In this document: in pieces, positions 23,970 through 39,867 of the stretch
Layout: each line of letters opens with the position of its first letter
Numbering within the stretch: the stretch's first letter is position 1
Source: Sedimenticola selenatireducens
Lineage (GTDB): Bacteria > Pseudomonadota > Gammaproteobacteria > Chromatiales > Chromatiaceae
DNA: 64,000 nucleotides
Assembly (NCBI RefSeq): GCF_007625115.1
Contig: NZ_VMNH01000023.1
Span: forward strand, 1 to 64,000
Reading direction: 5' to 3'
Program-made: the position numbers and the translations under genes
Notes under the pieces: model-generated
What the model saw: the letters and a program-made list of their open reading frames with translations, nothing else
Databases searched by the model: none
What the model was told of the DNA's origin: nothing

Positions 23970-23988
23970 GACGCAAAGACCGTACCAG
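23970..23988 (-). promoter_or_regulatory. Sigma-54 (-24/-12) promoter of the formate dehydrogenase operon
   Basis: On the minus strand the sequence reads TGGTACGGTCTTTGCG, against the sigma-54 consensus TGGCACG-N4-TTGCW. GG and GC are exactly 10 bp apart. The -12 element is about 43 bp upstream of the DUF3305 start, so the leader is about 30 nt. It points to RpoN-dependent transcription that needs an enhancer-binding activator. Confidence 0.65.
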
Positions 23989-24142
23989 CCTGCACAAAGC
24001 CAGTTTTTCAGCCCCGCTGACGCTTATTACCCCAGACAATAAAATATAAAAGCGATGAAAATTGCGGCAAAATGTCACAGTCCATCTGGACTAACTGAGA
24101 CAAATAGAACCTATCTGCGGTGGCCCTGCGGGTTGTAAATCG

Positions 24143-24155
24143 AGACAATTTGTCT
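24143..24155. promoter_or_regulatory. Palindrome AGACAATTTGTCT, candidate enhancer site between fdh and moaA
   Basis: A perfect palindrome with 6-bp arms in the 23931-24241 divergent region. A related half (AGACAAAT) lies at 24098-24105, and AGTCCA-TC-TGGACT at 24079-24092 is another perfect palindrome. The 11-mer GAGACAATTTG recurs upstream of mobB (39678-39688), and the 9-mer CAATTTGTC recurs upstream of the HTH/PBP regulator (34501-34509). It is a candidate binding site for a shared regulator. No gene is visible in the gap. Confidence 0.45.
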
Positions 24156-24187
24156 AATCAGCCCACTACTGCAATAACCCTAGTAAA

Positions 24188-24204
24188 TGGGTATGGTATT
24201 TGCC
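24188..24204 (+). promoter_or_regulatory. Weak sigma-54-like promoter of moaA
   Basis: GGGTATGGTATTTGCC has GG and GC 10 bp apart and the TTGC of the -12 element, but the -24 half is poor. It lies about 40 bp before the moaA ATG. Its near twin (AGGTATGATTTTTGCG) lies before the gene at 34687, which raises the chance that both are real. Confidence 0.4.
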
Positions 24205-24241
24205 TGTAGCTCACTCTAAACTCAGTCTTATAGGAGCACGC

Positions 24242-25270
24242 ATGGATCAAACTCAGGTAAACGGTGTCGACACAAATCTGCATCAGCCACTGATAGACAG
24301 GTACGGCAGGCAGATCAAATACCTCCGGATTTCTGTTACTGACCGGTGTGACCTGCGCTGTGTCTACTGTATGTCAGAAGATATGCAGTTTGTCCCACGC
24401 TCACAGCTTCTCACCTTGGAAGAGTTGCAACGCATCGGAAAAACCTTTGTAGAACTGGGTGTCAACAAGATCAGGATCACGGGTGGCGAACCGCTCACCC
24501 GACGCAATGTCATTCAGCTGTTTGATTCACTCGGTCAACTGGAGGGCCTGAATGACTTCACCCTGACCACCAATGGCACGCTGTTGCCGCAATATGCCAA
24601 AGAGCTCAAATCAGCCGGTGTAACGCGCATCAACATCAGCCTGGATACCCTGCAGCCAGAACGATTCCATGAAATCACCCGGGTGGGGGAAATCAAAAAG
24701 ACACTGGATGGCATCGAAGCCGCACGGACAGTCGGCTTTAAACGCATCAAGATCAACTCGGTCATCCTGAAGAATCGCAACCATGATGAGGTGAATGACC
24801 TGGTCCAGTTCGCCCTGGATCGTGGCATGGATATCAGCTTTATCGAAGAGATGCCCCTCGGTGTTATCAGCGAGCATGATCGTGCGGACGCCTACTATTC
24901 CAGTGACCAAATCCTGCACGATATAGAAAAGCAACACAGCCTGATCCCAACCACTGAAACGACTGGCGGCCCTTCCCGTTACTATCGAATAGATGGCACT
25001 GAAACCCGTGTCGGGTTTATCTCACCCCACAGCCATAACTTTTGTGATAGCTGCAATCGGGTTCGCCTGACCGCAGAGGGTCGCTTGCTGCTCTGCCTGG
25101 GGCAAGAGCATTCTGTTGACCTTCGCCGCGTACTCCGTGCCCATCCACTGGACAACGAACCACTGCGGGATGCCATTATTCAATCGATGGATCTGAAACC
25201 GAAAGGTCATGATTTTGATCTCACATCCCAACCAGTGCTGTTCCGGCATATGAATGCAACAGGCGGTTAG
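24242..25270 (+). CDS. moaA: MoaA, GTP 3',8-cyclase (molybdenum cofactor synthesis)
   Basis: 342 residues from the ATG at 24242, preceded by AGGAG; the frame is open to 24200. The radical SAM motif CDLRCVYC lies near residue 37, with GGEPL near 87. The second, C-terminal 4Fe-4S site is CDSCNRVRL followed by CLG. With MoaC it turns GTP into cyclic pyranopterin monophosphate, the first step of molybdopterin. It lacks the usual C-terminal GG dipeptide only in part, ending in NATGG. It is divergent from the formate dehydrogenase operon, which needs this cofactor. Confidence 0.93.
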   Translation: MDQTQVNGVDTNLHQPLIDRYGRQIKYLRISVTDRCDLRCVYCMSEDMQFVPRSQLLTLEELQRIGKTFVELGVNKIRITGGEPLTRRNVIQLFDSLGQLEGLNDFTLTTNGTLLPQYAKELKSAGVTRINISLDTLQPERFHEITRVGEIKKTLDGIEAARTVGFKRIKINSVILKNRNHDEVNDLVQFALDRGMDISFIEEMPLGVISEHDRADAYYSSDQILHDIEKQHSLIPTTETTGGPSRYYRIDGTETRVGFISPHSHNFCDSCNRVRLTAEGRLLLCLGQEHSVDLRRVLRAHPLDNEPLRDAIIQSMDLKPKGHDFDLTSQPVLFRHMNATGG

Positions 25271-25380
25271 TTCTCCGGAACCAATAACCTCACCAATTTC
25301 AGATGATTTGCATCAACGCAATGATGATTGTCATCTGACATAGTTAGGCTAAGAGGAAAACCAACTGGAGGGACCAGATT

Positions 25381-25659
25381 ATGCTAACACTTGAAGACTG
25401 CCTGGGCCTATGCGAACTGGATGAAGAAGAGATTCTGGCAATCGCAGAGCACGAACACGTCCCGGAAATTGTAGCCCTGGAGATGGCGCAATATATGGTG
25501 CATCTCCCGGAAGGAACTGTAATGATCAAACGAATGATCCTTGAAGATATTCAGCATGCCAAGCAAAATAATAATCAGTCACATGCCGAAGTTCTCGAGA
25601 AAGCGCTGAAACACTTCATCGTGAATCATCCTGAATTTAAAGCTCCATCTACCCAGTAA
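25381..25659 (+). CDS. Small acidic helical protein of unknown function
   Basis: 92 residues, all-helical by composition, no membrane segment or cysteine motif except two N-terminal cysteines (CLGLC). A clear ribosome site (GGAGG) lies just before the ATG. It follows moaA by 110 bp; that gap holds CAGATGA/TCATCTG (25300-25337). Not recognised beyond a small conserved hypothetical protein; its place suggests a link with the formate dehydrogenase region. Confidence 0.6.
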   Translation: MLTLEDCLGLCELDEEEILAIAEHEHVPEIVALEMAQYMVHLPEGTVMIKRMILEDIQHAKQNNNQSHAEVLEKALKHFIVNHPEFKAPSTQ

Positions 25660-25766
25660 ATTTTGAACCCGGGAGCGCAGCCGGTTGTAGAGACATCGAT
25701 TTTTAAGGATGAAACTCTACATGACAGTCTTGCTGCCTCACCCGTCCCAGCCCAGTCTGACAAAAA

Positions 25767-25816
25767 TCCCACTCTCAATTAATCAGTTACTGAGCGACTG
25801 GGAGCATTTTTATTTT
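25767..25816 (+). terminator. Possible weak terminator in the 25660-25977 gap
   Basis: TCCCACTC pairs imperfectly with GAG..TGGGA over a loop of about 17 nt and is followed by TTTTTATTTT. It would end the transcript of the small gene at 25381. The rest of this 318-bp gap shows no gene and nothing else clear. Confidence 0.35.
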
Positions 25817-25977
25817 CCAAGCTTGCCCATTCAGAATAGCCAGCCCCATTAAAAGGAGCGCGTGCTGGCGGACGGTGTTATACCCCCCTTCCACATTCAA
25901 CTCTTTCATATCTACATTTATCAACATTCAATAACTCAGTGACCGTCAATACCCTATTCTGTTGAATCCCTTAAAAC

Positions 25978-27003
25978 TCATGATTTGTTCAGAGGGGCAA
26001 TTTCGTACACCCAATAGCCACTCTGCTGGGCTACCAATTTAACACCCTCCATGCCTTTTGGTCCCTGCTTGTTGAAAGGTAGCAAACGACTTACCAGGCG
26101 ATCACCATCGCTCTCTTCTGTGAGAAAATAGACCCTCACCAACTCTTCCGAAGGGCGCAGTACAGCATAGTGTTTATAACCTTCTTCCTGAAGCCAATCC
26201 TTTACCCGCTGAATCATGCCATGCATATCACCGGTTCCAGGAAAATCCTTGAAACCAATCCCAATCTGATCTGGCATGAGCGTACCAAGTTTATAGGCAT
26301 CCGTAATATTCAGGATCAGCAGCAGCGATTTTTCACCCGACATCTCACGTAAGCGGTTCAATCCCGCATCTGACTCCATAGCAAGTGCGGCTGCATAGCG
26401 TGAAAAAACGTTACCCTCTTTTGCCGATCCGACCTGCCAGAACGCTTGCTCTTTTTTCTCCACCTGATCCTGCTTTGCCAACCACGGCAGTGGTACGATC
26501 AAGGGTGTTGCCTGGTGGGGTATTGTAAGGGGCTGGCACTGACACACAATTGACAAGATACGCATTGTGTCCCACCAACCAAGCACAGGGACATCCCCCT
26601 CGGCCTGCTTCTCCAGCACAGGCACCATCTCTAACAGTGCAGCGAGATTACCTGTTTCATAAAGCACCGGCTCTGCCAGCAGATTATTCCATTGTAGAAG
26701 TACCGGGGATTCAGCATCAGGATAGGCCACATAGGCAACGGCTAAAGGCTGCGTGTTATCAGGCATTTTTAATTGGAAGCGAGACACACTGACGGACTGG
26801 GCTTTTTCACTCGCACCCAGCTCTTTAAAATCGCCAAGCACACCATTGGTTTCCAAATGATACTCATAGACAGGGACAACAGGGCGCATAAGTTCCATCC
26901 CCACCCAAACCAACATCATGATACCGATGGATACCAGCAGAACAGCGGCAAGTGGGTAATGACGTTTGAGCCGCTGTTCTCTCTCAATAGCTATGGCAGT
27001 CAT
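25978..27003 (-). CDS. haoB: HaoB-like membrane-anchored protein next to hydroxylamine oxidoreductase
   Basis: 341 residues with one N-terminal membrane anchor (about 17-37) and a large soluble domain on the outer side, without heme motifs. The start overlaps the haoA stop in ATGA, so the two are translationally coupled. Size, anchor and position fit HaoB, the conserved protein encoded after haoA in ammonia oxidisers and methanotrophs. Its function is not settled. The name rests mainly on context and overall shape, not on a diagnostic motif. Confidence 0.65.
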   Translation of the reverse strand: MTAIAIEREQRLKRHYPLAAVLLVSIGIMMLVWVGMELMRPVVPVYEYHLETNGVLGDFKELGASEKAQSVSVSRFQLKMPDNTQPLAVAYVAYPDAESPVLLQWNNLLAEPVLYETGNLAALLEMVPVLEKQAEGDVPVLGWWDTMRILSIVCQCQPLTIPHQATPLIVPLPWLAKQDQVEKKEQAFWQVGSAKEGNVFSRYAAALAMESDAGLNRLREMSGEKSLLLILNITDAYKLGTLMPDQIGIGFKDFPGTGDMHGMIQRVKDWLQEEGYKHYAVLRPSEELVRVYFLTEESDGDRLVSRLLPFNKQGPKGMEGVKLVAQQSGYWVYEIAPLNKS

Positions 27004-28733
27004 GCCTCCTCCCCGGACTGTTCTTTGCGCCGGCGCACACCGATCATGGCCAGTGAACCGGCCAGTAGCAAACCGCCGCCCAAGCCACCTATCGAGGCCT
27101 TCTTCTCAAAGGTATCCAGATTGAACATGCTGTGTTTGGAGCTGGCTTCCAGATCCGCCACACGTTTTTTGAGTGCCGCCATATCACGCAACTTTGTGTC
27201 TTCATCCATAATCCGCGCATAGTCGCCAATCAGTGGTGACCAACCCTCAGTGTATGTATAACCACCGGGGCTACCATGCGTTACACCTTTATAGAGTTTG
27301 ATCAGATCATGCTCCCACATCTGTGCATGGTCACGCTCAATAGTTGTCGGATTGTTACCCTTTGCCCAGAAGAGCTGAAAGAAACCGCCCGGCGCATCTT
27401 CAATTGGCTCAGGGGGTTTCGGACGATTGGTTTTTTGCCCCGGCAATAACCCATCATCATAGAGCTTGGTTAGAACCGCCTTGGCCTCTTGCTCTTTGGC
27501 AATACCCTGTTTGATGCTGCCATCAATGATTTCAAAATAGGACTTGGCAAACTTCGGAGAATGGCAAGTATCACACGTATCGATCCACGCCTCCTCACGC
27601 TCCTTAAACCACTTGTGATTTAAATTATCGGCTATAGCAGGCGTGGGATTAAACGCCCAACGCACTTTGCGAACCACGTTATGGCCGAACTTCCCCTTGT
27701 ACTCCATATGGCATAGCGCACAGGTGGGACCGGTTTGGCCACCTTTCTCAATAGCCTTTTCAAGCGGCTGCTCCCAATCCCATCCATCTCCATGCGCCTG
27801 ATAGACCGTTCCATGCTTGGAGAGTAAAAACTGCTCATACTCATTATGGTCAACACCATTATGACAAGTGGCACAAGCCTCTGGTTTGCGCGCTTCGGCT
27901 GCAGAGAACTGGTGCCTGGAGTGACAGGTATCGCACTTCGGTGCGTTGACATGACACATCGTGCAACCCGAGGCAATCTCACGTTCCTCAATAGCCGCCC
28001 AGGTGGCCAACTCAACATTCGCCTGATAACCCAGCGCATGTGAGGGTCTGCCATCAGGCCATTGATCTTGTGGCCAATCCATCGTATCCCGCTCAGACTC
28101 ACGCTCTGCAAATTGCTTCAGATGACATTGACCACAAACAGCCGCATCCGGCATACGCAGATCTTTGTCATGCTTGCCCTTCTTCGCACCTATCCCCACA
28201 TGACAATCAATACAGGAGACCTGATTGAGCTGTTCATGCTTGTCCAGTTTCCCCAAAGACCTTAGATTTTTTTCCGCTTCTTCTAGCAGTGCCTTCTTGT
28301 AATAACGGGGGTCATCTGGTGGTAAATTACGCAGCGCCGTCAGATTGGAGTGCGTGCTTTTACGCCAGGCTGCCACCGCCCCAGGGGTTTCATCCCGATC
28401 TTCATGGCAGGTGATACACTCCTGCCCCGTAGAGGCGTGTGTCTCAGTTGTCGGGGGTTTATAGAAACTCAATGGATTGAAATATTGATCGATGGACATC
28501 GGCTCCCATTTATCGGCAAATTTTCCTTTGCCCGCCCCCTGCTTGGGATCGGTGTAGCGATCAACCAACTTGTCATAGAGCTGTTTCGGTGATGCCGACT
28601 CTTCGTTCAATCCCAAGGCCTTATAGGTCTCTTTAGGGATATCACCCCAAGTGGGGCTGAGTGTCAGAATGCCTATCAGAACAAGCAACAACTTGCTTGC
28701 GATAAGTAAGTTTCTCTTTTTTGTGCTGCACAT
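27000..28733 (-). CDS. haoA: Octaheme hydroxylamine oxidoreductase (HAO), membrane-anchored
   Basis: 577 residues with an N-terminal signal (about 8-30) and eight CXXCH motifs, starting at residues 106, 174, 200, 257, 267, 287, 338 and 387. This spacing fits the HAO family. The fourth heme is the place of the P460 centre. Tyr492 and Tyr494 in PGGYTYTEGW are candidates for the tyrosine that cross-links to heme P460 in oxidative HAO and is missing in reductive epsilonproteobacterial forms. A hydrophobic helix near 549-567 followed by RRRKEQ anchors the C-terminus. It may oxidise hydroxylamine or handle NO and nitrite. No amo, cytochrome c554 or cM552 gene adjoins it. Confidence 0.88.
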   Translation of the reverse strand: MCSTKKRNLLIASKLLLVLIGILTLSPTWGDIPKETYKALGLNEESASPKQLYDKLVDRYTDPKQGAGKGKFADKWEPMSIDQYFNPLSFYKPPTTETHASTGQECITCHEDRDETPGAVAAWRKSTHSNLTALRNLPPDDPRYYKKALLEEAEKNLRSLGKLDKHEQLNQVSCIDCHVGIGAKKGKHDKDLRMPDAAVCGQCHLKQFAERESERDTMDWPQDQWPDGRPSHALGYQANVELATWAAIEEREIASGCTMCHVNAPKCDTCHSRHQFSAAEARKPEACATCHNGVDHNEYEQFLLSKHGTVYQAHGDGWDWEQPLEKAIEKGGQTGPTCALCHMEYKGKFGHNVVRKVRWAFNPTPAIADNLNHKWFKEREEAWIDTCDTCHSPKFAKSYFEIIDGSIKQGIAKEQEAKAVLTKLYDDGLLPGQKTNRPKPPEPIEDAPGGFFQLFWAKGNNPTTIERDHAQMWEHDLIKLYKGVTHGSPGGYTYTEGWSPLIGDYARIMDEDTKLRDMAALKKRVADLEASSKHSMFNLDTFEKKASIGGLGGGLLLAGSLAMIGVRRRKEQSGEEA

Positions 28734-28843
28734 AACCTCTCCCCCCGTGAGCTACTGCCCATGACAAAGTCGGACACCTCGTGTCCTGGTGTCATAAAAA
28801 ACTAGATATGGGGAGGAATAAAGGACCAATCCGGAATAAAAAA

Positions 28844-28912
28844 ATGGTACCAGCAGGAGAAGGGGCGCTATTTCCACCCTGGTATTATGGAAATTTTCTA
28901 TACTGGTACTAT
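28844..28912. promoter_or_regulatory. Three CTGGTAYYAT repeats between haoA and the MocR gene
   Basis: CTGGTACCAT (28844-28853, minus strand), CTGGTATTAT (28879-28888, plus) and CTGGTACTAT (28903-28912, plus) share the form CTGGTAYYAT. They lie 60-130 bp before the regulator ATG and on the haoA side of the gap. Repeated short boxes upstream of a mocR gene are usual for autoregulation, so these are likely operator sites for the divergent regulator. Confidence 0.5.
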
Positions 28913-28972
28913 CGGAAGAACGCATACACTACTTATGATAGGGCCAGAGCCATTGGCCACAGAGGTTGAGCG

Positions 28973-30499: not shown

Positions 30500-30681
30500 G
30501 CAAAGCATATCAAATTAGAGTATGCATAGGGTCGGTAATGGCTTAATGGGCAACCCTGAACATATATGTCCTATTTATCTCCGGTAATAATGTAAATCAT
30601 TATAAAAATAGAGTATGTACCCCGGGGAGTTTTACGACACCTGCCGCTGATTCCGACGCACTCCTGATAAATGTCCCCTGC

Positions 30682-31260
30682 TCACATAACAAAACCAGCA
30701 ACCGGTATCGCTCTCACAACAAATCGTCCTGGCCCACCGGGTATCAACGCATCAAACGGATAGCAGGTGATCAGGGTCAATCCATTGCTATTCTGCTCTA
30801 ACAGCCATGTATCCTGTTCATCGTACACATCCCTCTTAATTACGGCATACATCAAGGATTCACCTGTGGTCGGTGTTATCCTGATCTGATCGCCGGGTTG
30901 TAGATACTGAAGAAACTGAAAGTGTGTATCACGATGGCCGCTTACAGCACTGTTACCCAAGCCACCCAGTGGCGCTGTTCCAGCGATATGCCCAGGACCA
31001 AAGGCAAGTGATCTTCCACTCGAACCCTCAAGTACAATCTGATCAATCCCAAGCCGCTCAATCTCCATTCTTGCCACGGGCCAGGTGTCAGCCCAGGGCC
31101 ATGGACGGACACGACTGTTTCCTGCTTGCGTCTCTTCCCAGGCGCTCTTGAGGAGTTGTTGCGCGAGCAGGGCCTTGGCCTTGATGTAACCTCCTTCACT
31201 GATCTGCCAAAGCCCTACTAACACAAGAAAGGTGATGAATGGCGTTGTCCATTTTTTCAT
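30682..31260 (-). CDS. Class GN sortase (proteobacterial dedicated sortase)
   Basis: 192 residues with an N-terminal membrane anchor (about 7-25). The catalytic set of sortases is visible: His in AVSGHRDTHF (near 119), Cys in LITCYPFD (near 169) and Arg in GPGRFVVRA (near 183). This small sortase type occurs in gammaproteobacteria with a single dedicated target, which here lies just upstream (31272-33452). It should cut the LPQTA-like motif of that target. The 30500-30681 gap holds ATAATG-N5-CATTAT (30587-30603) and two copies of TAGAGTATG. Confidence 0.9.
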   Translation of the reverse strand: MKKWTTPFITFLVLVGLWQISEGGYIKAKALLAQQLLKSAWEETQAGNSRVRPWPWADTWPVARMEIERLGIDQIVLEGSSGRSLAFGPGHIAGTAPLGGLGNSAVSGHRDTHFQFLQYLQPGDQIRITPTTGESLMYAVIKRDVYDEQDTWLLEQNSNGLTLITCYPFDALIPGGPGRFVVRAIPVAGFVM

Positions 31261-31271
31261 GCCTTTTGCCT

Positions 31272-33452
31272 CTATCCCCGGCCAATGTTCAAACCTAACT
31301 TGTGCGTCGTGATGCGCTGATCACGTTGCCACCACTTAAACAATCCAGCCAACACTAACAGGAACAGACCCAGCAGAATATTCAGTTCTGCCGCTGTGGC
31401 CGTCTGCGGTAATTTGCCAAATACTTTTTCGGCATGCCAACCCTTGGGCAGATTGGTCGGCATGGCCTTGCTCTTTAGACCCTCTTGGATTGGGCGTGAG
31501 GGTGTTTTATCTACAGCCACCAGACTGGTGTATTGACTGACCAGTTTGTGTGGCAGGGCAACTGCCAACACATCATTGCGCACTTGCATCTCATCCCGCC
31601 CTCTGGCCTTTTCATTCATCAGCGCGGCAATTTTTCTGCGCGCCCAGAGGAGATGTACACCGGACTCCTGCGCACCACCCTTGAGCGTGACTTGTTGCTT
31701 CCATTCATTACCGGCAACCTGGCCTGTGATATCCAACTGGGTTGCTGACTGTTGCATTTTCACCGCCAGAACAATCGGCTCACCGGCATAAAGATCGGGT
31801 ATTCTTGACGGCCACATCTCTACACTTTGTCCTTCTGGCCACTGAATGGAGATATCCGTAAGGAGGGGTGTTTCTAATTTTGCAAACAGCGCCGCCATTT
31901 TTTCACCCACCTCTTCTACCTTGCCGATATAGGTAAAGGTGCCTCGACCAAACTCTGCCGCCCGGGTCATGAAAAAGCTGTTAGGTGCCGAACCAATGCC
32001 GATGGTGAACAGGCGACTCTCACCGAGCTGTTCGTGGATCAGTTTAAACAGTGCTTCTTCATTGCCAACACTGCCATCCGTTAGAAACACAACCTGACGC
32101 AGCACACCCTTTTCTGCATGCTGGCGCAGTGCCAACTGTAACGCCGGCAACATCTCGGTACCCCCATCGGCGAGCAAGCCATTGACATACTTTGTGGCCC
32201 ATTGAATGTTTTTTACACTGGCTTGTACGGCTTGAGGAAACAGCGCATCGGTCTGATGATTGAATTGAATCACATTGAATCGATCGTTGGGTGCTAATCG
32301 CTGTAGTGCCAACTTGAGTGCCTCTCTGGCTTGTACGATTGAATCACCGTGCATAGATCCAGAGGTATCAATCACATAGATCACTTCTCTTGGTACAGGA
32401 TTATCAATGGATTGCTGACTGACAGGTGGCATTACCATCAATAACGCATAGTCGCTGTTATCCCACTTTTCCGTAAACAGGGCGGCATGCGGTGCGGCTT
32501 CTGCACGCGGCACCCAGTGAAGTTCGAAATCCCGATCAGCGGGGACTGCGCTATCCTGCAAATGAATTTGATGCACCCCCTTTCCATCCTGTTCGACTGT
32601 GATCTTGTGATAACTACTCTCCAGTTTTGCCAGTGGCATCCCGGCATCCAGACCGATCTGTATACTGACGGGATTGATAGGACCTTCAGCGGGATCGACT
32701 ACCGGCGGGGTAATACGTGAGGCATCCGTTACCTGATCAGTATTATTTGCCCAGCCACTCCCTTGAAAGGCGACTATTTCAGAGGGCCCAGTGGGTATCC
32801 CAGGAATGTACCGGGGCGCCACTACCAAGGGGAAACGTAACCTGAAACCACCCTGGTCATAATGCAGTGTCTGTTGATATTCAATTTCGACTTGTACGGT
32901 TTCATTCGGTGCGATATTGGCAACGGCAGTCGTGAAGATATTGGGCCGCTCCTGACTCAGCAAGCTGGCTTTGCGCCCTTCTCGCTTTGCTTTTTCATAG
33001 GTTTTTTTCGCCTGTTCCTTCTCCTGTATTTCACCCTCAATAAAACGCTCACCGATGCGCAGACGCATCCGATCGACCGCCGCATCATCAGGTAGTGGAA
33101 ATACATAAGTACCCTCCACCCACTCTGAAGCCGTATTTTTGAACTGCTGCTTGACCACGACACGCGCCATTATGCCGCTGATGGTCATTTTCACATCGGT
33201 ATTCAACAAGGGCGCATCCACCGATACACCACCACTGGCAAGCTTCATCAAGAGACTGCCACGCTTTACTTCATCCATACGGATAGGCTGATAGTTTGAC
33301 TTATTGTTTAATTCGGCGGCTGCCGCACTGTTACTCCAGATAAACACGAGCAATCCCAAAAGCAGTGCCGTGACCATGCCAGCAAACAGGGAAGCCAGCG
33401 AAGTGAACAGCATGTCTTTACCTAAATGATTAATCGGCTTTTGCTCGGCCAT
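31272..33452 (-). CDS. Sortase target protein with VIT and vWA domains
   Basis: 726 residues from the ATG at 33452 (GGGAGA upstream); the frame is open to 33566. An N-terminal helix (about 15-40) is the signal or anchor. A VIT domain (about 60-200) and a vWA domain with MIDAS DTSGS at 362-366 follow. The sorting signal is LPQTA near 681, then a hydrophobic helix and a basic tail (KWWQRDQR). This matches the marine proteobacterial sortase target family. It is probably displayed or moved at the envelope by the adjacent class GN sortase. Confidence 0.92.
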   Translation of the reverse strand: MAEQKPINHLGKDMLFTSLASLFAGMVTALLLGLLVFIWSNSAAAAELNNKSNYQPIRMDEVKRGSLLMKLASGGVSVDAPLLNTDVKMTISGIMARVVVKQQFKNTASEWVEGTYVFPLPDDAAVDRMRLRIGERFIEGEIQEKEQAKKTYEKAKREGRKASLLSQERPNIFTTAVANIAPNETVQVEIEYQQTLHYDQGGFRLRFPLVVAPRYIPGIPTGPSEIVAFQGSGWANNTDQVTDASRITPPVVDPAEGPINPVSIQIGLDAGMPLAKLESSYHKITVEQDGKGVHQIHLQDSAVPADRDFELHWVPRAEAAPHAALFTEKWDNSDYALLMVMPPVSQQSIDNPVPREVIYVIDTSGSMHGDSIVQAREALKLALQRLAPNDRFNVIQFNHQTDALFPQAVQASVKNIQWATKYVNGLLADGGTEMLPALQLALRQHAEKGVLRQVVFLTDGSVGNEEALFKLIHEQLGESRLFTIGIGSAPNSFFMTRAAEFGRGTFTYIGKVEEVGEKMAALFAKLETPLLTDISIQWPEGQSVEMWPSRIPDLYAGEPIVLAVKMQQSATQLDITGQVAGNEWKQQVTLKGGAQESGVHLLWARRKIAALMNEKARGRDEMQVRNDVLAVALPHKLVSQYTSLVAVDKTPSRPIQEGLKSKAMPTNLPKGWHAEKVFGKLPQTATAAELNILLGLFLLVLAGLFKWWQRDQRITTHKLGLNIGRG

Positions 33453-33587
33453 GGTGGTCTCCCGCTTTTTGCTTTTGAGGTATCTTTTTGTTGTTACTGG
33501 GTATCGTTCGCTGTCGATAGAGATCCCGACACATGGCTTCCGGTGAACAGTAGAGAAAGTGCTCACTTAACGGCTGTATGACACGGC

Positions 33588-34343
33588 TCATGTGGCCTCC
33601 TGATAACAAAATCGAATAATCACTTGGCGGTCGTAACCCAGACCCTCAACATCACTCGGGTCATACTGAGCATTTGCTTCGCCATAGGCCTGGGTTTCTA
33701 TGCGCTTAAAGGGGACGCCCCACTGAACCAATTGATCAGTAACGCTCAGGGCACGCGCTTCAGTCAGTGTCTGATTGTTCGAGGTACGACCCCGCTTATC
33801 CGCAAAGGCTTGGACATGGACCCTGAGTGATTGCAGCGTGCCTAATGCTTGCGCCAGTGCTTTAAGCGCCTGCTGATCCTGTAGCTCCAGGGCACTCTGA
33901 TTGGTTCGGAATTGGATTCGATAGATAAAGCCCGATGCAATGGCCTGAAGCTGCTGTTTGTTATGCGAGTGAGCGGTGCGTAATTGTTGAGACAGCTCAG
34001 CCAGTTGGGCGACATCCTGTTTTCGTTGCTGTTGTAGGCGAGCCACCTCCTGCCGCGTGGTGTGCAAATCGGATTCCAGTCCAGAATTCCGTCCAGCCAA
34101 CACACCACCTGCGGCACCGATAATAAATCCGGGCGGGCCCGCCAGAATAACGCCAGCAATACCCCCAATACCGGCACCTTGCCACTCTTCTGAATAAGTT
34201 GGTGCAGTCTCCTGTTCATTGAAGTGACCACCCTGCCACTGCTCAACATCATGGACGGCATTGAGATAATTGCTTTCGTAGGCACTGGCGCAATTGCCCC
34301 ATGCCAATCCAGCCATAAGGGGAAAAAGTACTGCTCGGTTCAT
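33588..34343 (-). CDS. pdsO: PdsO, sortase-associated OmpA-like protein
   Basis: 251 residues from the ATG at 34343 (AGGAG upstream). Signal peptide (about 1-22), a glycine-zipper segment (about 58-82), a coiled coil (about 85-130) and a C-terminal OmpA/MotB peptidoglycan-binding domain (FRTNQSALE; ALSVTDQL; DRQVIIRF). It fits the PdsO member of the proteobacterial dedicated sortase system. It lies at the head of the pdsO-target-sortase operon. Confidence 0.85.
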   Translation of the reverse strand: MNRAVLFPLMAGLAWGNCASAYESNYLNAVHDVEQWQGGHFNEQETAPTYSEEWQGAGIGGIAGVILAGPPGFIIGAAGGVLAGRNSGLESDLHTTRQEVARLQQQRKQDVAQLAELSQQLRTAHSHNKQQLQAIASGFIYRIQFRTNQSALELQDQQALKALAQALGTLQSLRVHVQAFADKRGRTSNNQTLTEARALSVTDQLVQWGVPFKRIETQAYGEANAQYDPSDVEGLGYDRQVIIRFCYQEAT

Positions 34344-34498
34344 TACCTGCTCCTGATTGGTCCAGCGCACCTTCCCTGGTGTGTCAGTCATCCAGACTTG
34401 CGCCGGTTGCTTGTTATCTGTGGGCTATTAAACCCTGTTCAGGTGGCAAGCCGGTTTCGTCAAGCGGGCAGAGCGATGGCAGATTCGGGCAACAATGT

Positions 34499-34510
34499 GG
34501 CAATTTGTCC
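34499..34510. promoter_or_regulatory. Candidate enhancer half-site (CAATTTGTC) upstream of the HTH/PBP regulator
   Basis: GGCAATTTGTCC contains the same 9-mer CAATTTGTC as the palindrome between fdh and moaA. It lies about 125 bp before the sigma-54-like element at 34629-34644, a usual enhancer distance. Apart from these sites the 34344-34686 gap shows no gene. Confidence 0.35.
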
Positions 34511-34628
34511 AACTGTCCTGACCCTGTTGGTACAAATCAGACCACATCCCCTCTTTCTGATATCTATTTCGATAGCTGAATCACCGTAACGGAGGGGTTG
34601 GACGGAATACGGCAAGCAGAAACAAGAA

Positions 34629-34644
34629 AGGTATGATTTTTGCG
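34629..34644 (+). promoter_or_regulatory. Weak sigma-54-like promoter of the HTH/PBP regulator
   Basis: AGGTATGATTTTTGCG has GG and GC 10 bp apart and TTGC at -12. It is close to the element before moaA. The ATG at 34687 is 44 bp downstream of the GC. Confidence 0.4.
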
Positions 34645-34686
34645 TAAAAAGAAGACGGACCCGATGGTCATATAGGGAATAAACTG

Positions 34687-35601
34687 ATGGCAGCTGTAAT
34701 GTCACAACACAGCGATGTTTTTATGAGTGTTAAGCAGGTCGCTGAATACCTGCACCTGAATGAAAAGAAGATCTACGCCCTGGTGAATGAAGGCGGCATT
34801 CCCGCTACAAAAGTGACGGGTAAATGGATGTTTCCCCGAGAGCTGGTTGATCGCTGGATGCTCGACTCGACCCACGGAGGATTACTCACGGATCGACTGG
34901 TCATTTCAGGGGGTGGTGACCCCCTCTTGTACCGATTAATACAAGACTTCGCGCGACAGACGGGCGCCCATGCCCTTATCAGCTATACACCCACGGGTAC
35001 GCGACTTGGTTTGGATCTACTGCAGGCCAACCGTGTTGATGCCTGTGGCGTACACTGGGGACCGGATAGTGAGAGCCACCTGCGTCATCCCGCCCTGCTC
35101 AGCCAATACTCCCAACATCATCAATGGGTCTTAATCCGTGCATTCCGGCGCGAGCAAGGGCTTATGATCAGCCCCGAAATCAATATCAAATCCAGTGACG
35201 TCGATTTACTGTTTCACAATCGCTATCGCTGGGCGACACGACAAACCGGGTCAGGAAGTCAACGTTTTCTGCTCGAATTGTTAAGCCACTACAGCATCAG
35301 TAAAGATGAACTAAACAATCAGGTCAGCGCACTATCGGCGCGGGAAGCAGCAGCGGCAATCGCCATGAAGCAGTGTGATGTGGCGCCAGGAGCACGCGCC
35401 ATTGCCAAGGAATATGGCCTGGGTTTTATTACCTTTGGCTGGGAGTCGTTTGATATCGCCCTGCCAAGAAACATCTGGTTCAGGCGCCTGTTCCAGGACC
35501 TGATCACACGTCTAAAATCGCAACCCTGCCAATCCATGGCGGAACGTCTGACGGGTTATAACCTGGAGGGAGCTGGCGATCTGGTATGGGGTGATGATTA
35601 G
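34687..35601 (+). CDS. One-component regulator: helix-turn-helix plus periplasmic-binding-protein fold
   Basis: 304 residues. The N-terminus (about 10-60) is an excisionase/MerR-like helix-turn-helix (MSVKQVAEYLHLNEKKIYALV, shown here only as the region). The rest (about 70-295) resembles a type 2 periplasmic binding domain of the molybdate/tungstate-like group, with SGGGDPLL and TPTGTRLGLDLL near its start. It has no signal peptide, so it acts in the cytoplasm as a ligand sensor. Regulators of this build often control Mo- or W-dependent genes. Neighbouring mobB and the shared promoter type support that, but the ligand is inferred. Confidence 0.75.
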   Translation: MAAVMSQHSDVFMSVKQVAEYLHLNEKKIYALVNEGGIPATKVTGKWMFPRELVDRWMLDSTHGGLLTDRLVISGGGDPLLYRLIQDFARQTGAHALISYTPTGTRLGLDLLQANRVDACGVHWGPDSESHLRHPALLSQYSQHHQWVLIRAFRREQGLMISPEINIKSSDVDLLFHNRYRWATRQTGSGSQRFLLELLSHYSISKDELNNQVSALSAREAAAAIAMKQCDVAPGARAIAKEYGLGFITFGWESFDIALPRNIWFRRLFQDLITRLKSQPCQSMAERLTGYNLEGAGDLVWGDD

Positions 35602-35618
35602 AACAGGTAGGTGTTAGA

Positions 35619-35867
35619 TTAATCTGGGGTATTTAATCCCTTCAATGCACTTTCCAGCTTGGTTCCCTCTAAATACTGGAAACAGCGAGTACTCCATTCA
35701 TCGGCCGTCATACTGCCGTCGGCAATCATCGCGGCAACAACCTGACCCCATTGAATGAGATAGGCATTCTTCTCGAGAAGTCGGGTATGTTGATCTAAAA
35801 TTTCCCGGCGCTTTTCATCCAGCTTCTCGAGCTCTTTTTCAAGAAATAAACCATGTTCGTCGGTCAT
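35619..35867 (-). CDS. Small coiled-coil protein of unknown function
   Basis: 82 residues, strongly helical and charged in the first half (a coiled coil about 5-35), with no cysteine motif or membrane segment. It lies convergent to the HTH/PBP regulator, 17 bp from its stop, and upstream of the Cache kinase gene in the minus direction. Not recognised. Confidence 0.55.
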   Translation of the reverse strand: MTDEHGLFLEKELEKLDEKRREILDQHTRLLEKNAYLIQWGQVVAAMIADGSMTADEWSTRCFQYLEGTKLESALKGLNTPD

Positions 35868-35975
35868 AACCGTACCTTCTCTCTATCTCAATCTCTGCCA
35901 GCCTCATTGCGAATCATAGCGCAAAATACCCCAATACGCAGCTAACCTGAATATAACAACCGAACGCTGTTGCGT

Positions 35976-38102
35976 TTACCCTAGCGATTCTGATGGCTGG
36001 TCTTCATCCAATTCCTGTTGGCCATGCATGGACTGAAGCTGCTCTTCAATGGTCTCTTCGTCACTCGCCATCACCGGCACGCACAAAAGCCAGACGGTAA
36101 AACAGGAACCCACGCCGACCTCAGATTCGACTGTGATATTTCCACCATAGCGTCTCATCAAGCCATAGCTGACTGATAGACCCAAACCCGTTCCTTCACC
36201 CTGCTGCTTGGTACTGTAAAAGGGATTAAAGATACGACCCATCTCATTATCATCCATGCCTGACCCATTATCCTTTACCTGAAACTGAATACCTTTATCA
36301 CTCCAGTTTCGGCTAAGAATCTGTATCACACCAACGCGGCCTTTTAATGAGTGAATTGCGTTCACCACAAGGTTAACCAGCACCTGCTGCAACTCTTGTT
36401 CATTGATCTCTACCAATCTATCGGCCTGCAAATCAAGTGTAATCTCAAACTCAGACTTTTTACGTAAATGACGCACCAGGGCCAAGGTATGCTCAACCAC
36501 GCTATTCACATCAACATGGGTCAGATAACCTGCATACTCATCAGGCCTGGAGTATTGCAGCAGGTTATTGACAATATCCCTTATTCGATAAATCTGTTCG
36601 ATTACCAGTTTAATTTCATTCTCTACCGGTTGCAGTGCCGCGCCCAGCTCGGCAGTAATGACATCCAGATTACCCAGCATGACCGCCGTCGGATTGTTGA
36701 TTTCATGGGCGACACCAGCCGTTAGCTCACCCAGCGCCGCCAGCTTCTCTGCAATAACCAGTTGCTGGCGAGTTTCACGCAACGCCCGAATGGTCCGTTG
36801 CAGATCCTGGTTTTTACTTTGCAATTCAGCGGTACGTTCTTTGACTTTATCTTCCAATTGATCAGCCCAGGCCTGAATCTGCTGATTCCGCTCAGCCAAC
36901 AGATCCAGCATCGCATCAAACTCACGGGCCAACTCACCAATCTCATCCCTGGACGCGACAGAACCTATACGCCGCGCCTCACCTTCCCGGGTAGCCCTGA
37001 CCACCCGACTCATAGTCTCCAGTGGTTTGAAGATAGACTTGGCGCCCAAAACCGCCAACAGTGAGGAGATGCCCATCAGAATCAAAAACAGTAACACCAA
37101 TATGGCAAGCGCCTTCCAAAGCTCATTACGAAATGGCTTTTCCAGGAATCCGGCGTAGAGCATACCGATACGCTTTCCATGAACATCAATAATCGGCTCA
37201 TAGGCTGACAGGTACCAGTCATTCACCACAAAGGCACTGTCTATCCAGACCTCGCCCTCATCCAGTACCTTACTGCGCACTTCATTCGACACCCGGGTGC
37301 CGAGCGCCCGCTCTCCCGGCCTTAATGGGACATTGGTGGTAATACGCACATCGTCAATAAAGACCGTTACCGTTCCAATACTGCCCTCAGGCAAACTGCC
37401 TGGGCCGTACACCAGGTCACTGATGGTATCGACAAAACTGAAGTTATCATTAAGTGAAACCCCCCCATCGACTACGGCAACCACCTTTCCACTGAGATCG
37501 CGCACCGGATGTATGGCGCGAATCATCATCGCCCGATCCTCAATTGTTCGTTTGGTAGGTCGTGCCTTCTGGGTAGGGATCAAGGGCAGGTGATACTGTT
37601 GCGCAAGGTCTGCTGAAAGTAATTTGAGATCAGCCTGACTGAAAATTTCGACACCAACCCTGGGCTCGCCCTGGAGAGCCGCATCCAACGAAGGGGACGG
37701 GATATGTGTTGATTGCTCAGCAGATCGTGCCTGAACATCTTGCCCATGCTGGTCGAGCAATCGAAGATAACTAAAGCCTGACCCCGTCTTGAGGCTGAGT
37801 AACTGTGCTTCTATTGACGCATAATCCTGTTCTTCCAGAGCAGTGCGAAAGGCATAGGATTCAGTCAGATTCCCAACCTGCCCCAGATAATCCTGGCGCA
37901 TGCGCCGAAAAATATCATGCGAGACAGAAAGGTCTGTATTGACCTTTAGGTAGAGTTGATCGTAAGTGGCATTGGCCCCCCAGTAGATTGCCAATACCAG
38001 TGCAATCGGCATGATCAGTACAATTGGGAAGAGCACCAGGGTCAGTAGCTTGTAACGCAATGACCCATTGATCTGCTTAAAAATTTGCTGGAGAAGGCTC
38101 AC
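35976..38102 (-). CDS. Cache-domain sensor histidine kinase, partner of the sigma-54 regulator
   Basis: 708 residues. Two membrane helices (about 17-42 and 330-352) enclose a periplasmic Cache-type domain (about 45-325), a common sensor of small organic acids. HAMP (about 355-407), a coiled coil and a HisKA domain (VAHEINNPTAVMLG, near 472) follow, then an ATPase domain (GTGLGLSVSYGLM). The kinase starts 16 bp after the sigma-54 response regulator gene. It probably senses an external ligand, possibly formate or a related compound, but the ligand is a guess. Confidence 0.87.
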   Translation of the reverse strand: MSLLQQIFKQINGSLRYKLLTLVLFPIVLIMPIALVLAIYWGANATYDQLYLKVNTDLSVSHDIFRRMRQDYLGQVGNLTESYAFRTALEEQDYASIEAQLLSLKTGSGFSYLRLLDQHGQDVQARSAEQSTHIPSPSLDAALQGEPRVGVEIFSQADLKLLSADLAQQYHLPLIPTQKARPTKRTIEDRAMMIRAIHPVRDLSGKVVAVVDGGVSLNDNFSFVDTISDLVYGPGSLPEGSIGTVTVFIDDVRITTNVPLRPGERALGTRVSNEVRSKVLDEGEVWIDSAFVVNDWYLSAYEPIIDVHGKRIGMLYAGFLEKPFRNELWKALAILVLLFLILMGISSLLAVLGAKSIFKPLETMSRVVRATREGEARRIGSVASRDEIGELAREFDAMLDLLAERNQQIQAWADQLEDKVKERTAELQSKNQDLQRTIRALRETRQQLVIAEKLAALGELTAGVAHEINNPTAVMLGNLDVITAELGAALQPVENEIKLVIEQIYRIRDIVNNLLQYSRPDEYAGYLTHVDVNSVVEHTLALVRHLRKKSEFEITLDLQADRLVEINEQELQQVLVNLVVNAIHSLKGRVGVIQILSRNWSDKGIQFQVKDNGSGMDDNEMGRIFNPFYSTKQQGEGTGLGLSVSYGLMRRYGGNITVESEVGVGSCFTVWLLCVPVMASDEETIEEQLQSMHGQQELDEDQPSESLG

Positions 38103-38118
38103 CGTATATTAAGGCCGG

Positions 38119-39483
38119 TTAACACTCTCCCCAGGCCTGTACTTTCCGCTCCAGGGTCTTTCGTGAGATGCCCAATAGTCGCGCTGCCGCCGATTTATTT
38201 CCACCTTCACCTTCCAGTACACGCAGGATGTGATGCTTCTCCACTTGATCCAATTGCAGTGCATCACCTTCACTCTTTGAATCAGCCGGGTCATCTGAAA
38301 GTGAGGGCTTGCTGAGACATTGACTGGGACTGCTGTTAAGCAACAGACAGCGTTCGATGACATTTTTCAGTTCACGAACATTTCCCGGCCAGTCATAGTT
38401 GCGCAGACAGGCCAGATCTGCCTGAGAGAGTTGGGGAGGCTCCACACCCAATTCAGAGGCCAGCGACTTACTGAAATGAGCCGTCAGCTGAGGAATATCT
38501 TCCAATCGCTCCCGCAGTGACGGCATGCGGATTGAGAGGACATTAAGGCGATAATAGAGATCCTCTCTAAACTGACCATTTTTTACCTGCTCACTCAGAT
38601 CCCGATTAGTTGCAGCAATAATCCGCACCGCCACAGGCACCTCTTTATTGGAACCCACCGGGCGAACGGTCCGCTCTTCCAACACCCTCAGAAGATGCGC
38701 CTGCATGGAGAGAGGCATCTCACCAATCTCATCTAGGAAGAGCGTCCCCTCATTGGCATAGGTAAAGAGTCCTTCCCGGGCTTGGTGCGCCCCGGTAAAG
38801 GCGCCCTTAATATGGCCAAACAGTTCACTTTCCAGCAGTTCCGCCGAGATCGCTCCACAGTTGACCGGGACAAAACTACCGACACGACCACTCCATTCAT
38901 GAATCGCACGCGCTGCCAACTCCTTGCCGGTACCCGATTCACCTTCAATCAGCACAGTAGAGGGCATCGGAGCCACTCGCTTGATGACCTGACAGAGATT
39001 CTTAATCAGTTCACACTCACCCACCATGCCAGATTTGTCAAAGATGTGGTCTACCTGTCGACGTAGCACAAAATTTTCCCGCTGCATTTTCTGCCGATCC
39101 ATATAACGCTTAACTGAGGCCATCATCTGCTCCATGCGAAACGGTTTCATTATGAAATCTTCCGCGCCCGCCCGCAGCGCGGCAATAGCCGTCTCCAGAT
39201 CCGCATAAGCGGTCATGAAAATTACTCCTGTAGCAGTCCCCTGCTCCCGCAACTCGGTAACCCATTCAACACCGGTCCGACCAGGCAGGCGTATATCCGC
39301 AATAATGAGATCGAAATAACAGCGTTCATGCAGTATCTCCGCCGCCGCCGCATTTTCTGCAGTCTCAACCAAGCCAAAATACTTCTGCAAGCCTCGCTGT
39401 AAAAAACTACGGATACCCGGCTCATCATCCACAATCAATACCGAGGTCATGCGTGTACTTGACTCAATCTCTTGTTGATCCAT
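38119..39483 (-). CDS. NtrC-family sigma-54 response regulator
   Basis: 454 residues from the ATG at 39483; a GTG at 39507 and an ATG at 39450 are alternatives. A receiver domain (phospho-Asp in LIIADIRLPG) is followed by an AAA+ domain with GESGTGKE (Walker A), GAFTGA (the sigma-54 contact loop) and LFLDEIGEMP (Walker B). A Fis-type helix-turn-helix (NKSAAARLLGISRKTLERK) ends it. The complete GAFTGA means it can activate sigma-54 promoters. It is the nearest enhancer-binding protein to the -24/-12 elements in this window. Confidence 0.92.
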   Translation of the reverse strand: MDQQEIESSTRMTSVLIVDDEPGIRSFLQRGLQKYFGLVETAENAAAAEILHERCYFDLIIADIRLPGRTGVEWVTELREQGTATGVIFMTAYADLETAIAALRAGAEDFIMKPFRMEQMMASVKRYMDRQKMQRENFVLRRQVDHIFDKSGMVGECELIKNLCQVIKRVAPMPSTVLIEGESGTGKELAARAIHEWSGRVGSFVPVNCGAISAELLESELFGHIKGAFTGAHQAREGLFTYANEGTLFLDEIGEMPLSMQAHLLRVLEERTVRPVGSNKEVPVAVRIIAATNRDLSEQVKNGQFREDLYYRLNVLSIRMPSLRERLEDIPQLTAHFSKSLASELGVEPPQLSQADLACLRNYDWPGNVRELKNVIERCLLLNSSPSQCLSKPSLSDDPADSKSEGDALQLDQVEKHHILRVLEGEGGNKSAAARLLGISRKTLERKVQAWGEC

Positions 39484-39677
39484 TACCTGCTCTGCCACAG
39501 AAATCACCCTTGGTTGATTTACAATTATTGTCTTCAGCGCGCGTCACCATGACAGCCGCTTTATTTCTACCCGAAAATAATCATTCATTCAGCCCTGATG
39601 CATGGCACCTGACCTGAACACTGATCCTGCATATAACCAGTATGGGACATTTTGACCCGATTTCCAGTCAAACCCTT

Positions 39678-39772
39678 GAGACAATTTGGTGTGAAATGGC
39701 TCATCTACTTGACTAAAAAATAGACCCTACACGCCAAAACATCCCAGATTCACCCATAAATCTCAGACAAAT
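39678..39772. promoter_or_regulatory. Candidate enhancer sites upstream of mobB
   Basis: GAGACAATTTG (39678-39688) is identical to 11 bases of the palindrome between fdh and moaA; AGACAAAT (39765-39772) is a further half-site. They lie about 170 and 85 bp upstream of the sigma-54 promoter at 39852. Between them CTACTTGACTAAAA (39705-39718) matches 13 of 14 bases of the IscR-like site before norE, but its second half is out of phase. No gene is visible between 39508 and 39956. Confidence 0.4.
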
Positions 39773-39851
39773 CACCCCTTTTAACGACTTTATTCTTATT
39801 TAACGCAAAGAATCGGAAGGCAATAATCGAACCAAATCCATTCCAATCAAT

Positions 39852-39867
39852 TGGCACTCTTATTGCT
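39852..39867 (+). promoter_or_regulatory. Sigma-54 promoter of mobB
   Basis: TGGCACTCTTATTGCT matches the sigma-54 consensus TGGCACG-N4-TTGCW at all fixed positions but one. The ATG of mobB is 89 bp downstream, and the divergent sigma-54 response regulator starts about 370 bp upstream. Confidence 0.7.

Follow-up and report, generated by a model that had tools for sequence, protein, structure and literature searches.

The window, a 64,000-nt stretch of a Sedimenticola selenatireducens contig, carries a formate dehydrogenase (fdh) operon, the divergent gene moaA and, further along, genes for a protein with HTH_17 and PBP_like domains (HTH/PBP), a sensor histidine kinase and an NtrC-type response regulator, followed by mobB (Table 1). 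FdhA begins with a Tat-type SRRAFL sequence, has Cys (RICH motif) rather than Sec and is matched best in NCBIfam by TIGR01591 (Fdh-alpha), at 480.5 bits under a cut-off of 666. A CCG protein and an unassigned ORF at 13396-15325 may also belong to the operon. A Moco riboswitch ahead of moaA was rejected, there being no Rfam match at gathering cut-offs between 12000 and 46000. Pfam confirms the Cache kinase and the GAFTGA-bearing sigma-54 response regulator that the original prediction had placed between the HTH/PBP gene and mobB, and the regulator has the features of the NtrC type (D27, D28, D71, T99, K121 and GAFTGA). The best NCBIfam matches of the pair are AtoS and AtoC, each below cut-off. 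The regulator is not a member of the FhlA family: it has a receiver domain, and NF011958 matches it only from residue 139 on, at 277 against a cut-off of 830 bits.

Table 1. Features of the fdh-mobB region. Scores of -24/-12 elements and of palindromic sites come from separate matrices; ranks are within the window, those of -24/-12 elements on both strands and approximate.
Feature	Positions	Strand	Basis and remarks
fdh operon	15322-23930	-	Pfam and NCBIfam; gene order same in relatives
Cytochrome b FdhC (fdh operon)	15322-16419	-	
FdhB (fdh operon)	16615-17244	-	
FdhA (fdh operon)	17261-20155	-	
TorD/NarJ-like chaperone (fdh operon)	20428-21120	-	
Poly-4Fe-4S protein (fdh operon)	21186-22811	-	
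DUF3306 (fdh operon)	22804-23409	-	
DUF3305 (fdh operon)	23406-23930	-	
fdh -24/-12 element	23972-23987	-	TGGTACGGTCTTTGCG; score 13.99, rank 2
Palindromic site, fdh/moaA intergenic	24062-24080		score 19.7, rank 2; centre 85 nt from fdh -24, 119 nt from moaA -24
Palindromic site, fdh/moaA intergenic	24095-24113		score 13.2, rank 5; centre 118 nt from fdh -24, 86 nt from moaA -24
Palindromic site, fdh/moaA intergenic	24140-24158		score 16.2, rank 4; centre 163 nt from fdh -24, 41 nt from moaA -24
moaA -24/-12 element (weak)	24189-24204	+	GGGTATGGTATTTGCC; score 9.80, rank 26
moaA	24242-25270 (start ~24242)	+	TIGR02666, 373 bits, above cut-off
Palindromic site upstream of HTH/PBP gene	34495-34513		score 18.0, rank 3; 126 nt from -24
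HTH/PBP gene -24/-12 element (weak)	34629-34644	+	AGGTATGATTTTTGCG; score 9.99, rank 22
HTH_17 + PBP_like regulator (HTH/PBP)	34687-35601	+	Pfam
Sensor histidine kinase	35976-38102	-	Pfam: sCache_3_3, HAMP, HisKA, HATPase
NtrC-type response regulator	38119-39507	-	Pfam: receiver, sigma-54 AAA+ with GAFTGA, Fis-HTH
Palindromic site, regulator/mobB intergenic	39642-39660		score 20.6, rank 1; 202 nt from mobB -24
Weaker palindromic site, regulator/mobB intergenic	39676-39694		score 9.0; 168 nt from mobB -24
mobB -24/-12 element	39852-39867	+	TGGCACTCTTATTGCT; score 15.01, rank 1
mobB	39957-40535	+	TIGR00176, 146.5 bits, above cut-off

A matrix scan of both strands of the window recovered all four predicted -24/-12 elements, each with GG-N10-GC in a TGGCACG-N4-TTGCW-like context. 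Those of fdh and mobB are strong and those of moaA and the HTH/PBP gene weak, again as proposed, judging by ranks that are approximate because the matrix was set by hand from general consensus frequencies. The window shows no excess of the plain consensus, which gives 43 matches at up to two mismatches versus 39.9 (sd 6.3) in shuffles; taken alone, the two weak elements are therefore not above chance and carry no meaning. Their support comes from conservation together with a shared upstream site.

The original prediction would fall if the elements were not conserved in relatives, a test that it passed. An element scoring at least 13 lies at -41 to -113 of the fdh operon in 19 of 20 rows, the exception (L036/G066) coming from a genome without a regulator match, and the mobB element is kept in 8/8 Sedimenticola rows. 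Of the weak elements, that of the HTH/PBP gene is found at -58/-59 in all eight Sedimenticola rows but in none of the ten outside the genus, and that of moaA (score at least 9.5 within 130 nt of the gene) in 11/16, being absent from L033, L040, L043 and L056 and scoring 8.2 in L054. Second copies were excluded from the rows (L018, L022 and L024, of L040, L038 and L041, respectively), L023 was taken in for the HTH/PBP element, and L026-L028 are remote kinase matches. A further -24/-12-like sequence directly at the TorD start is also conserved, without a palindromic site.

Common to all four units is a palindrome, approximately TGNGRCAWWWTGYCNCA, positioned 41-202 nt upstream of the -24/-12 elements. 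Enhancer sites are typically located at such distances. Site matches number 24 upstream of DUF3305 (3.6 expected), 21 upstream of moaA (3.0 expected; this stretch is shared with DUF3305), 19 upstream of mobB (3.4 expected) and 13 upstream of the HTH/PBP gene (3.4 expected), and control genes give 0 versus 3.5 expected (4Fe-4S protein), 3 versus 3.2 (FdhA) and 0 versus 1.4 (histidine kinase). With a matrix trained on the relatives' mobB sites alone, the window's four best-scoring sites all fall in the three intergenic stretches of the targets, which make up 1,055 of its 64,000 nt. These tests, and the site ranks of Table 1, are partly circular because the palindrome was first spotted by eye in the window and the training sites were chosen with that core. 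Across the host genome, the first pattern tried, GACAANTTGTC, was not enriched (84 matches versus 215 for the reversed control), and a longer one gave 16 versus 13; taken by itself the site is therefore uninformative, and it gains meaning from promoter context and conservation. Among 15 genomic site matches inspected, a -24/-12 score exceeding 11 occurs within 400 nt only at fdh/moaA and mobB (the HTH/PBP site has 10.0), and among 15 genomic -24/-12 matches only the one at fdh has the site, both patterns being of a kind that misses variants, including mobB's own promoter. At two other high-scoring genomic sites, L062 (18.6) and L066 (19.3), no -24/-12 score within 400 nt exceeds 8.

A cleaner test of the site is provided by 42 further fdh loci from across the class, scored with the matrix from near relatives at cut-offs (12 and 14) set after the scores had been seen. 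The site is present in 16 of the 17 loci with a -24/-12 element and in 3 of the 25 without (Fisher 8.8e-8, shared ancestry ignored). The regulator was found in 15/19 of these genomes with the site and in 6/23 without. In six genomes (G135, G161, G175, G281, G369 and G377) a regulator is present but DUF3305 is not preceded by the site, even though the kinase/regulator pair adjoins fdh at L166 and L167; four have the site but no regulator match at cut-off (G166, G275, G366 and G392). A piece of a regulator lies at a contig edge in G366. In a set of 112 genomes, regulator and fdh operon occur together in 18, regulator alone in 4, fdh alone in 2 and neither in 88 (Fisher 4.5e-15, shared ancestry ignored). 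With conserved elements, an upstream site linking all four units and a regulator that co-occurs with the fdh operon, the proposal of a common regulon is supported at the level of comparative genomics.

The regulator also appears to be tied to its neighbouring kinase. Key receiver residues are intact in 18/18 kinase-bearing loci (the kinase is a different one at L032 and lies on another contig at L055), while at least one is changed in 14/15 kinase-less loci (Fisher 1.8e-8, shared ancestry ignored); L044 is changed only by a mild T99A, and without it the count is 13/15. At L143 the phospho-acceptor Asp has become Glu, and at L171 GAFTGA is lost. Absence of the kinase was judged on the local stretch, alone for L030, L031, L050, L054, L133, L143, L145 and L171, and with the backing of a whole-genome search of 104 genomes (among the matches listed) for G002, G003, G005, G009, G013, G016 and G018. 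ORFs in gaps near the regulators (two of L053 and one each of L031, L054 and L171) contained no kinase.

That the four elements are chance matches in intergenic DNA with no regulon behind them would agree with the weakness of two of them and the unenriched consensus, but is extremely improbable given the conservation and the class-wide test. Another sigma-54 activator might drive these promoters, leaving the neighbouring pair to control something else, and the host genome does hold 25 sigma-54 activator domain matches, 17 of them with E <1e-48; we consider this very unlikely, however, as the regulator and fdh co-occur and the same site lies in the regulator's own divergent promoter. The palindrome could also be the operator of the HTH/PBP protein acting as a metal- or cofactor-responsive repressor or activator, instead of or in addition to the regulator's site, with both proteins acting on the same promoters. 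The model of this protein (pLDDT 85.5) resembles PBP and LysR-effector folds in a fold search that lists the tungstate-binding 3lr1 as one of many, at rank 33, and permits no ligand call; a link to molybdate, tungstate or the cofactor is what we infer. HTH/PBP tracks the site slightly better than the regulator does (16/19 class-wide genomes with the site, 4/23 without), it accompanies the site in G166, G366 and G392, which have no regulator match at cut-off, and at L171 the site is strong (21.6) despite the loss of GAFTGA, with no -24/-12 element seen. Against this, no HTH/PBP match was obtained in G129 (5 contigs, 99% complete) or in G351, both of which have the site, the element and the regulator; class-wide, the site accompanies -24/-12 elements, and its spacing is that usual for enhancer sites. 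An HTH/PBP operator is a rather unlikely alternative, and binding of the palindrome by the neighbouring regulator, rather than by the HTH/PBP protein, is the reading we favour.

If the regulon is real, its signal may still be something other than formate, the kinase responding to another small carboxylate or to an envelope signal. Formate binding is a prediction: in the Foldseek comparison of the sensor model (pLDDT 91.1), Cache sensors that bind other ligands rank level with the formate-bound ones, and the kinase of L148 lacks both Thr of the three residues reported to hold formate in PacF (Arg/Thr/Thr, in the accessible text of PMC12501870 and PMC12415202). At the sequence level, however, the only PDB matches up to E 1 are 8py1 (E 0.001) and 8py0 (E 0.0025), both titled 'in complex with formate' and both also among the Foldseek matches, and an artificial ankyrin (0.06). 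R253, T256 and T269 of the kinase align with the PacF residues at the same spacing, the three are kept in 16/18 kinase sensors, and the main target is formate dehydrogenase. A different signal therefore seems improbable to us, and the kinase probably binds formate.

The promoters, the shared site, their conservation, the co-occurrence, the joint decay of the partners and the retained residues, all read from sequence, point to a compact, dedicated sigma-54 regulon with a formate-sensing kinase and an NtrC-type regulator, to which we assign a probability of about 0.72. In this regulon, periplasmic formate would bind the Cache module of the kinase, which would phosphorylate the regulator; the phosphorylated protein would then bind the palindrome and remodel sigma-54 RNA polymerase at the promoters of the fdh operon, moaA (initial step of pterin cofactor synthesis), the HTH/PBP gene and mobB. 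In relatives, tupABC-mobAB is preceded by the same promoter type, an arrangement not seen at this place in Sedimenticola, and TupA matches fall below the equivalog cut-off; there, enzyme, cofactor assembly and metal uptake would be induced together with formate. The suggestion that the four units fit molybdenum cofactor and formate use needs correcting as to the metal, for which tungsten is a candidate, in relatives at any rate.

A Mu-like prophage interrupts rpoN in the sequenced strain, whereas relatives' rpoN is intact, and the regulon may be silent there: its output is predicted to be off as a consequence of this split. A regulated excision element like skin is not preferred because the insertion encodes the transposase, transposition protein and late activator of a Mu-like transposable phage and is flanked by a 5-base target duplication. 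A testable prediction on a natural rpoN mutant follows.

More tentatively, and with slightly less than even confidence, we propose that many Gammaproteobacteria use a periplasmic formate-sensing pair as the master switch of their tungsten/molybdenum formate dehydrogenase, one that induces the enzyme, cofactor assembly and metal uptake together. Repeated loss of the kinase would have left a phosphorylation-independent activator (as with the Glu of L143), control may have passed to HTH/PBP, and the sequenced strain would be a natural rpoN knock-out whose entire sigma-54 output was disabled by the prophage. If true, extracellular formate controls the formate dehydrogenase, its pterin cofactor and the uptake of metal through one switch, and the lineages form a series where a two-component system seems to turn one-component. 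Such a switch would also supply a sensor and promoter inducible by formate, as well as a candidate activator behind the RpoN dependence of the Vibrio cluster. A kinase/regulator pair (VC1521/VC1522) presumably adjoins the V. cholerae operon.

Escherichia coli FhlA is a one-component sigma-54 activator that senses cytoplasmic formate through N-terminal GAF domains and has no receiver. As proposed for the present system, it switches on a formate dehydrogenase system through sigma-54 in response to formate, but here a Cache sensor on a membrane-bound kinase and a regulator of the receiver type take its place. AtoSC and ZraSR have the same NtrC-type two-component domain layout and differ in sensor, site and targets. 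Among the open-access literature matches listed, none was found to describe this pair, the palindrome or formate sensing by a two-component system for formate dehydrogenase, and the accessible text of a Desulfovibrio regulator mapping (PMC3333781) has no formate dehydrogenase or Mo/W target. PacF and related Cache chemoreceptors (PMC12501870, PMC12415202; 8py0, 8py1) resemble the kinase in sensor fold and Arg/Thr/Thr but, as far as the accessible text goes, feed chemotaxis, whereas the domain considered here is part of a histidine kinase encoded next to a sigma-54 activator. In Vibrio parahaemolyticus, VP1510-VP1515, likened by annotation to the fdh operon (Fe-S protein, FDH-specific chaperone, large, Fe-S and cytochrome b subunits), are down in an rpoN deletion (log2 -3.2 to -4.8), an RpoN gel shift of the FDH promoter was negative, and V. 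cholerae formate dehydrogenase is cited as an RpoN ChIP-seq target; the accessible text names no activator, upstream site or cofactor genes for the Vibrio cluster (PMC9817140). Geobacter sulfurreducens fdnG (GSU0777) likewise has an RpoN promoter, by primer extension, with an activator gene upstream, which the accessible text does not tie to formate sensing or cofactor genes (PMC2725144). The original impression that the whole arrangement was undescribed must therefore be narrowed: sigma-54 control of formate dehydrogenase is known from Vibrio and Geobacter, and what still looks new is the two-component activator with the palindrome and the inclusion of cofactor genes.

Sequence comparison across relatives supports, with corrections, the original prediction that formate dehydrogenase (fdh), moaA, an HTH/PBP regulator gene and mobB form a sigma-54 regulon with its likely activator nearby. 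The window spans positions 1-64000 of contig 14 in a 4.03 Mb genome (G000). A periplasmic location of the enzyme is most likely, since FdhA begins with a Tat-type sequence and carries Cys in place of Sec. In Sedimenticola the fdh/cofactor neighbourhood also includes a dedicated sortase system (sortase, VIT/VWA protein, OmpA and response regulator TIGR03787), to which the stretches fetched from more distant relatives gave no hit. Near moaA lies a seven-times multi-haem cytochrome c (PF13447), with no match at the corresponding place in the fetched Sedimenticola relatives.

Features of the fdh/cofactor neighbourhood, the rpoN insertion and selected loci of relatives
Feature	Location	Strand	Remark
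fdh operon	window, from 23930	minus	first gene DUF3305
moaA			divergent from fdh operon
HTH_17/PBP_like gene	window 34687-35601	plus	same neighbourhood
Cache-sensor histidine kinase	window 35976-38102	minus	
NtrC-type regulator	window 38119-39507	minus	
mobB			divergent from kinase/regulator pair
-24/-12-like match at TorD start	window 21116-21131	minus	
Multi-haem cytochrome c	window 27000-28733		near moaA
Sortase system	window 30682-34391 and 40663-43502		
Mu-like prophage in rpoN	contig 14, ~178860-218530		roughly 39.7 kb (L088-L090); same contig, outside window
Extra site with -24/-12	L030 (G055) 8340-8451		between TorD and fdhA
Chemoreceptor-like protein	L053 (G018) 5052-6821	minus	MCPsignal
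Regulator with DACAGA	L171 (G419) 5837-7249		

A scan of both strands confirmed the four -24/-12 elements as described. Within the 64 kb they rank 1 (mobB), 2 (fdh), 22 (HTH/PBP) and 26 (moaA) and consensus counts in the window are at chance level; the latter two elements would not stand alone. The prediction had been staked on conservation in relatives, and at most 450 nt upstream of orthologues in fetched loci were scored. The DUF3305 element scored at least 13 at -41 to -113 in 19 of 20 loci, the only one without it (L036) coming from a genome with no regulator match (G066), and the mobB element was kept in 8/8 Sedimenticola loci (14.1-15.0). The HTH/PBP element stood at -58/-59 in 7/7 Sedimenticola loci (8/8 counting L023) and in 0/10 outside the genus at a score of at least 9.5 within 100 nt (L053 reached 9.2); that of moaA reached at least 9.5 within 130 nt in 11/16. 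A -24/-12-like match located directly at the start of TorD, also kept in Sedimenticola, has no palindromic site (see below) and could be either an internal promoter or a coding constraint; it serves as a control against over-reading -24/-12 conservation.

The target promoters share a palindromic site, spotted by eye first and then counted: observed against expected matches were 24 vs 3.6 for DUF3305 and 21 vs 3.0 for moaA (which share one upstream stretch), 19 vs 3.4 for mobB, 13 vs 3.4 for HTH/PBP and 27 vs 5.1 for the regulator's own upstream stretch (in the genus common with mobB), with no excess upstream of the 4Fe-4S, FdhA and kinase genes. The five best window matches of a symmetric matrix all fell inside the three target intergenics. 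To limit circularity, the matrix was also built from each promoter class of relatives separately: the four best matches in the 64 kb (mobB alone, DUF3305 alone) or the best three plus rank 6 (HTH/PBP alone) again lay there. A cleaner test than these used 42 fdh loci found class-wide via DUF3305 (46 of 369 genomes, the other four fetched before): at cut-offs chosen after scores were seen, 17 had a -24/-12 element (at least 12), and 16 of these also a site (at least 14; L162 at 14.0) lying 57-137 nt upstream, start to start, as opposed to 3 of the 25 loci lacking the element (L154, L161, L171). Outside the genus, the stretch divergent from the regulator carried an element (at least 10.5) with a site (at least 9.4) 41-191 nt upstream in 11 of 15 loci, the combination being absent from L031, L032, L033 and L053. 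Of the three loci typed in full, L047 and L050 have a tupA-tupB-tupC-mobA-mobB operon behind that promoter and L054 has mobA-mobB. The extra site and element in L030 suggest an internal promoter there.

Two proteins could bind this site. In whole-genome searches of the 42 class-wide genomes, with cut-offs at a visible score gap (regulator E 1e-115, HTH/PBP E 1e-60), the regulator occurred in 15/19 genomes with the site and 6/23 without it before DUF3305 (G135, G161, G175, G281, G369, G377), and the HTH/PBP protein in 16/19 and 4/23. The site accompanied the regulator alone in G129 and G351, HTH/PBP alone in G166, G366 (where a fragment of the regulator sits at the edge of a contig) and G392, and neither in G275. 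This supports a joint module in which either protein may be the binder. As far as our patterns see, the regulon appears local in G000: the site pattern gave 16 genome-wide matches vs 13 for the reversed control, three of them at target loci, and among 15 inspected a -24/-12 above 11 within 400 nt occurred only at fdh/moaA and mobB (best at HTH/PBP, 10.0). TGGYAYR-N4-TTGC gave 15 genome-wide matches, only the fdh one with a site.

Across 112 genomes the regulator was found in 22, DUF3305 in 20 and both in 18; in G004, a genome 65% complete, DUF3305 occurs without a regulator match, alongside a kinase piece. Kinase and regulator are likely partners, the strongest evidence being their co-decay: 18/18 kinase-bearing loci keep the receiver's acid pair, phospho-Asp, Thr/Ser and Lys, and at least one key residue is altered in 14 of the 15 loci with a regulator and no kinase (L044 only at T99, L143 D71E; L054 intact). 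This suggests that the regulator works without phosphorylation in some lineages. A chemoreceptor-like protein is encoded near the kinase-less regulator of L053. GAFTGA or a near form (GAYTGA in L031 and L145, GASTGA in L055, GSFTGA in L032) is kept except in L171, where DACAGA replaces it and the fdh promoter retains a strong site (21.6) with no -24/-12, which may mark a switch away from sigma-54 to a different mode of activation. L161, from the same genus, likewise has a strong site and no -24/-12.

The periplasmic part of the kinase (model pLDDT 91.1) matched PDB 8py1 and 8py0 by sequence, entries that the Foldseek output titles as formate complexes of chemoreceptor sensor domains, from Asticcacaulis benevestitus and Oscillibacter ruminantium. 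LuxQ, MkcA and other Cache sensors rank equal or above these in Foldseek, so fold alone gives no ligand. Excerpts of PMC12501870 report that changes of R142, T145 and T158 in PacF affect formate binding, and those of PMC12415202 that an sCache_3_3 domain with the reported residues binds formate. R253, T256 and T269 of the kinase have the same spacing, and 16 of 18 kinases retain Arg/Thr/Thr (the third residue is Ser in L025; L148 carries Ala and Glu), a count leaving aside the L032 kinase with its differing sensor.

In G000 a single RpoN DNA-binding domain was found, broken into two pieces that lie 39.7 kb from each other, and a family search of the genome found no second rpoN. The inserted stretch encodes Mu-like transposase, transposition protein, late activator, head protease, terminase and tape-measure proteins, and each of its ends bears two GATAAAT motifs, in inverted orientation, next to a target duplication of 5 bases; with the insert removed, the site encodes a 500-residue protein, which three relatives match around the junction. 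The domain was found in 32 of 38 genomes searched, 31 with at least one full-length match (that of G017 holds an internal stop), and is split only in G000. The split probably makes the sequenced strain a naturally occurring rpoN mutant; activity of the regulon would be expected in its relatives.

The arrangement had been thought undescribed. This appears to hold for the pair, its site and the cofactor genes, of which no account was found in the available portions of PMC9817140, PMC2725144, PMC12316311, PMC4464133 and PMC11733289; it does not hold for sigma-54 control of formate dehydrogenase, known in Vibrio and Geobacter. In those portions, DUF3305/DUF3306 are noted upstream of fdhGHI (PMC4464133), a PBP-like domain fused to MoeA co-occurs with TupA (PMC11733289), and predicted sigma-54 targets include formate dehydrogenases (PMC12316311). 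Deletion of rpoN in V. parahaemolyticus lowers VP1510-VP1515; the authors state that RpoN did not bind the promoter of this cluster in vitro and cite V. cholerae ChIP-seq as direct evidence (PMC9817140). For Geobacter fdnG an RpoN promoter has been mapped, and an activator gene lies upstream (PMC2725144).
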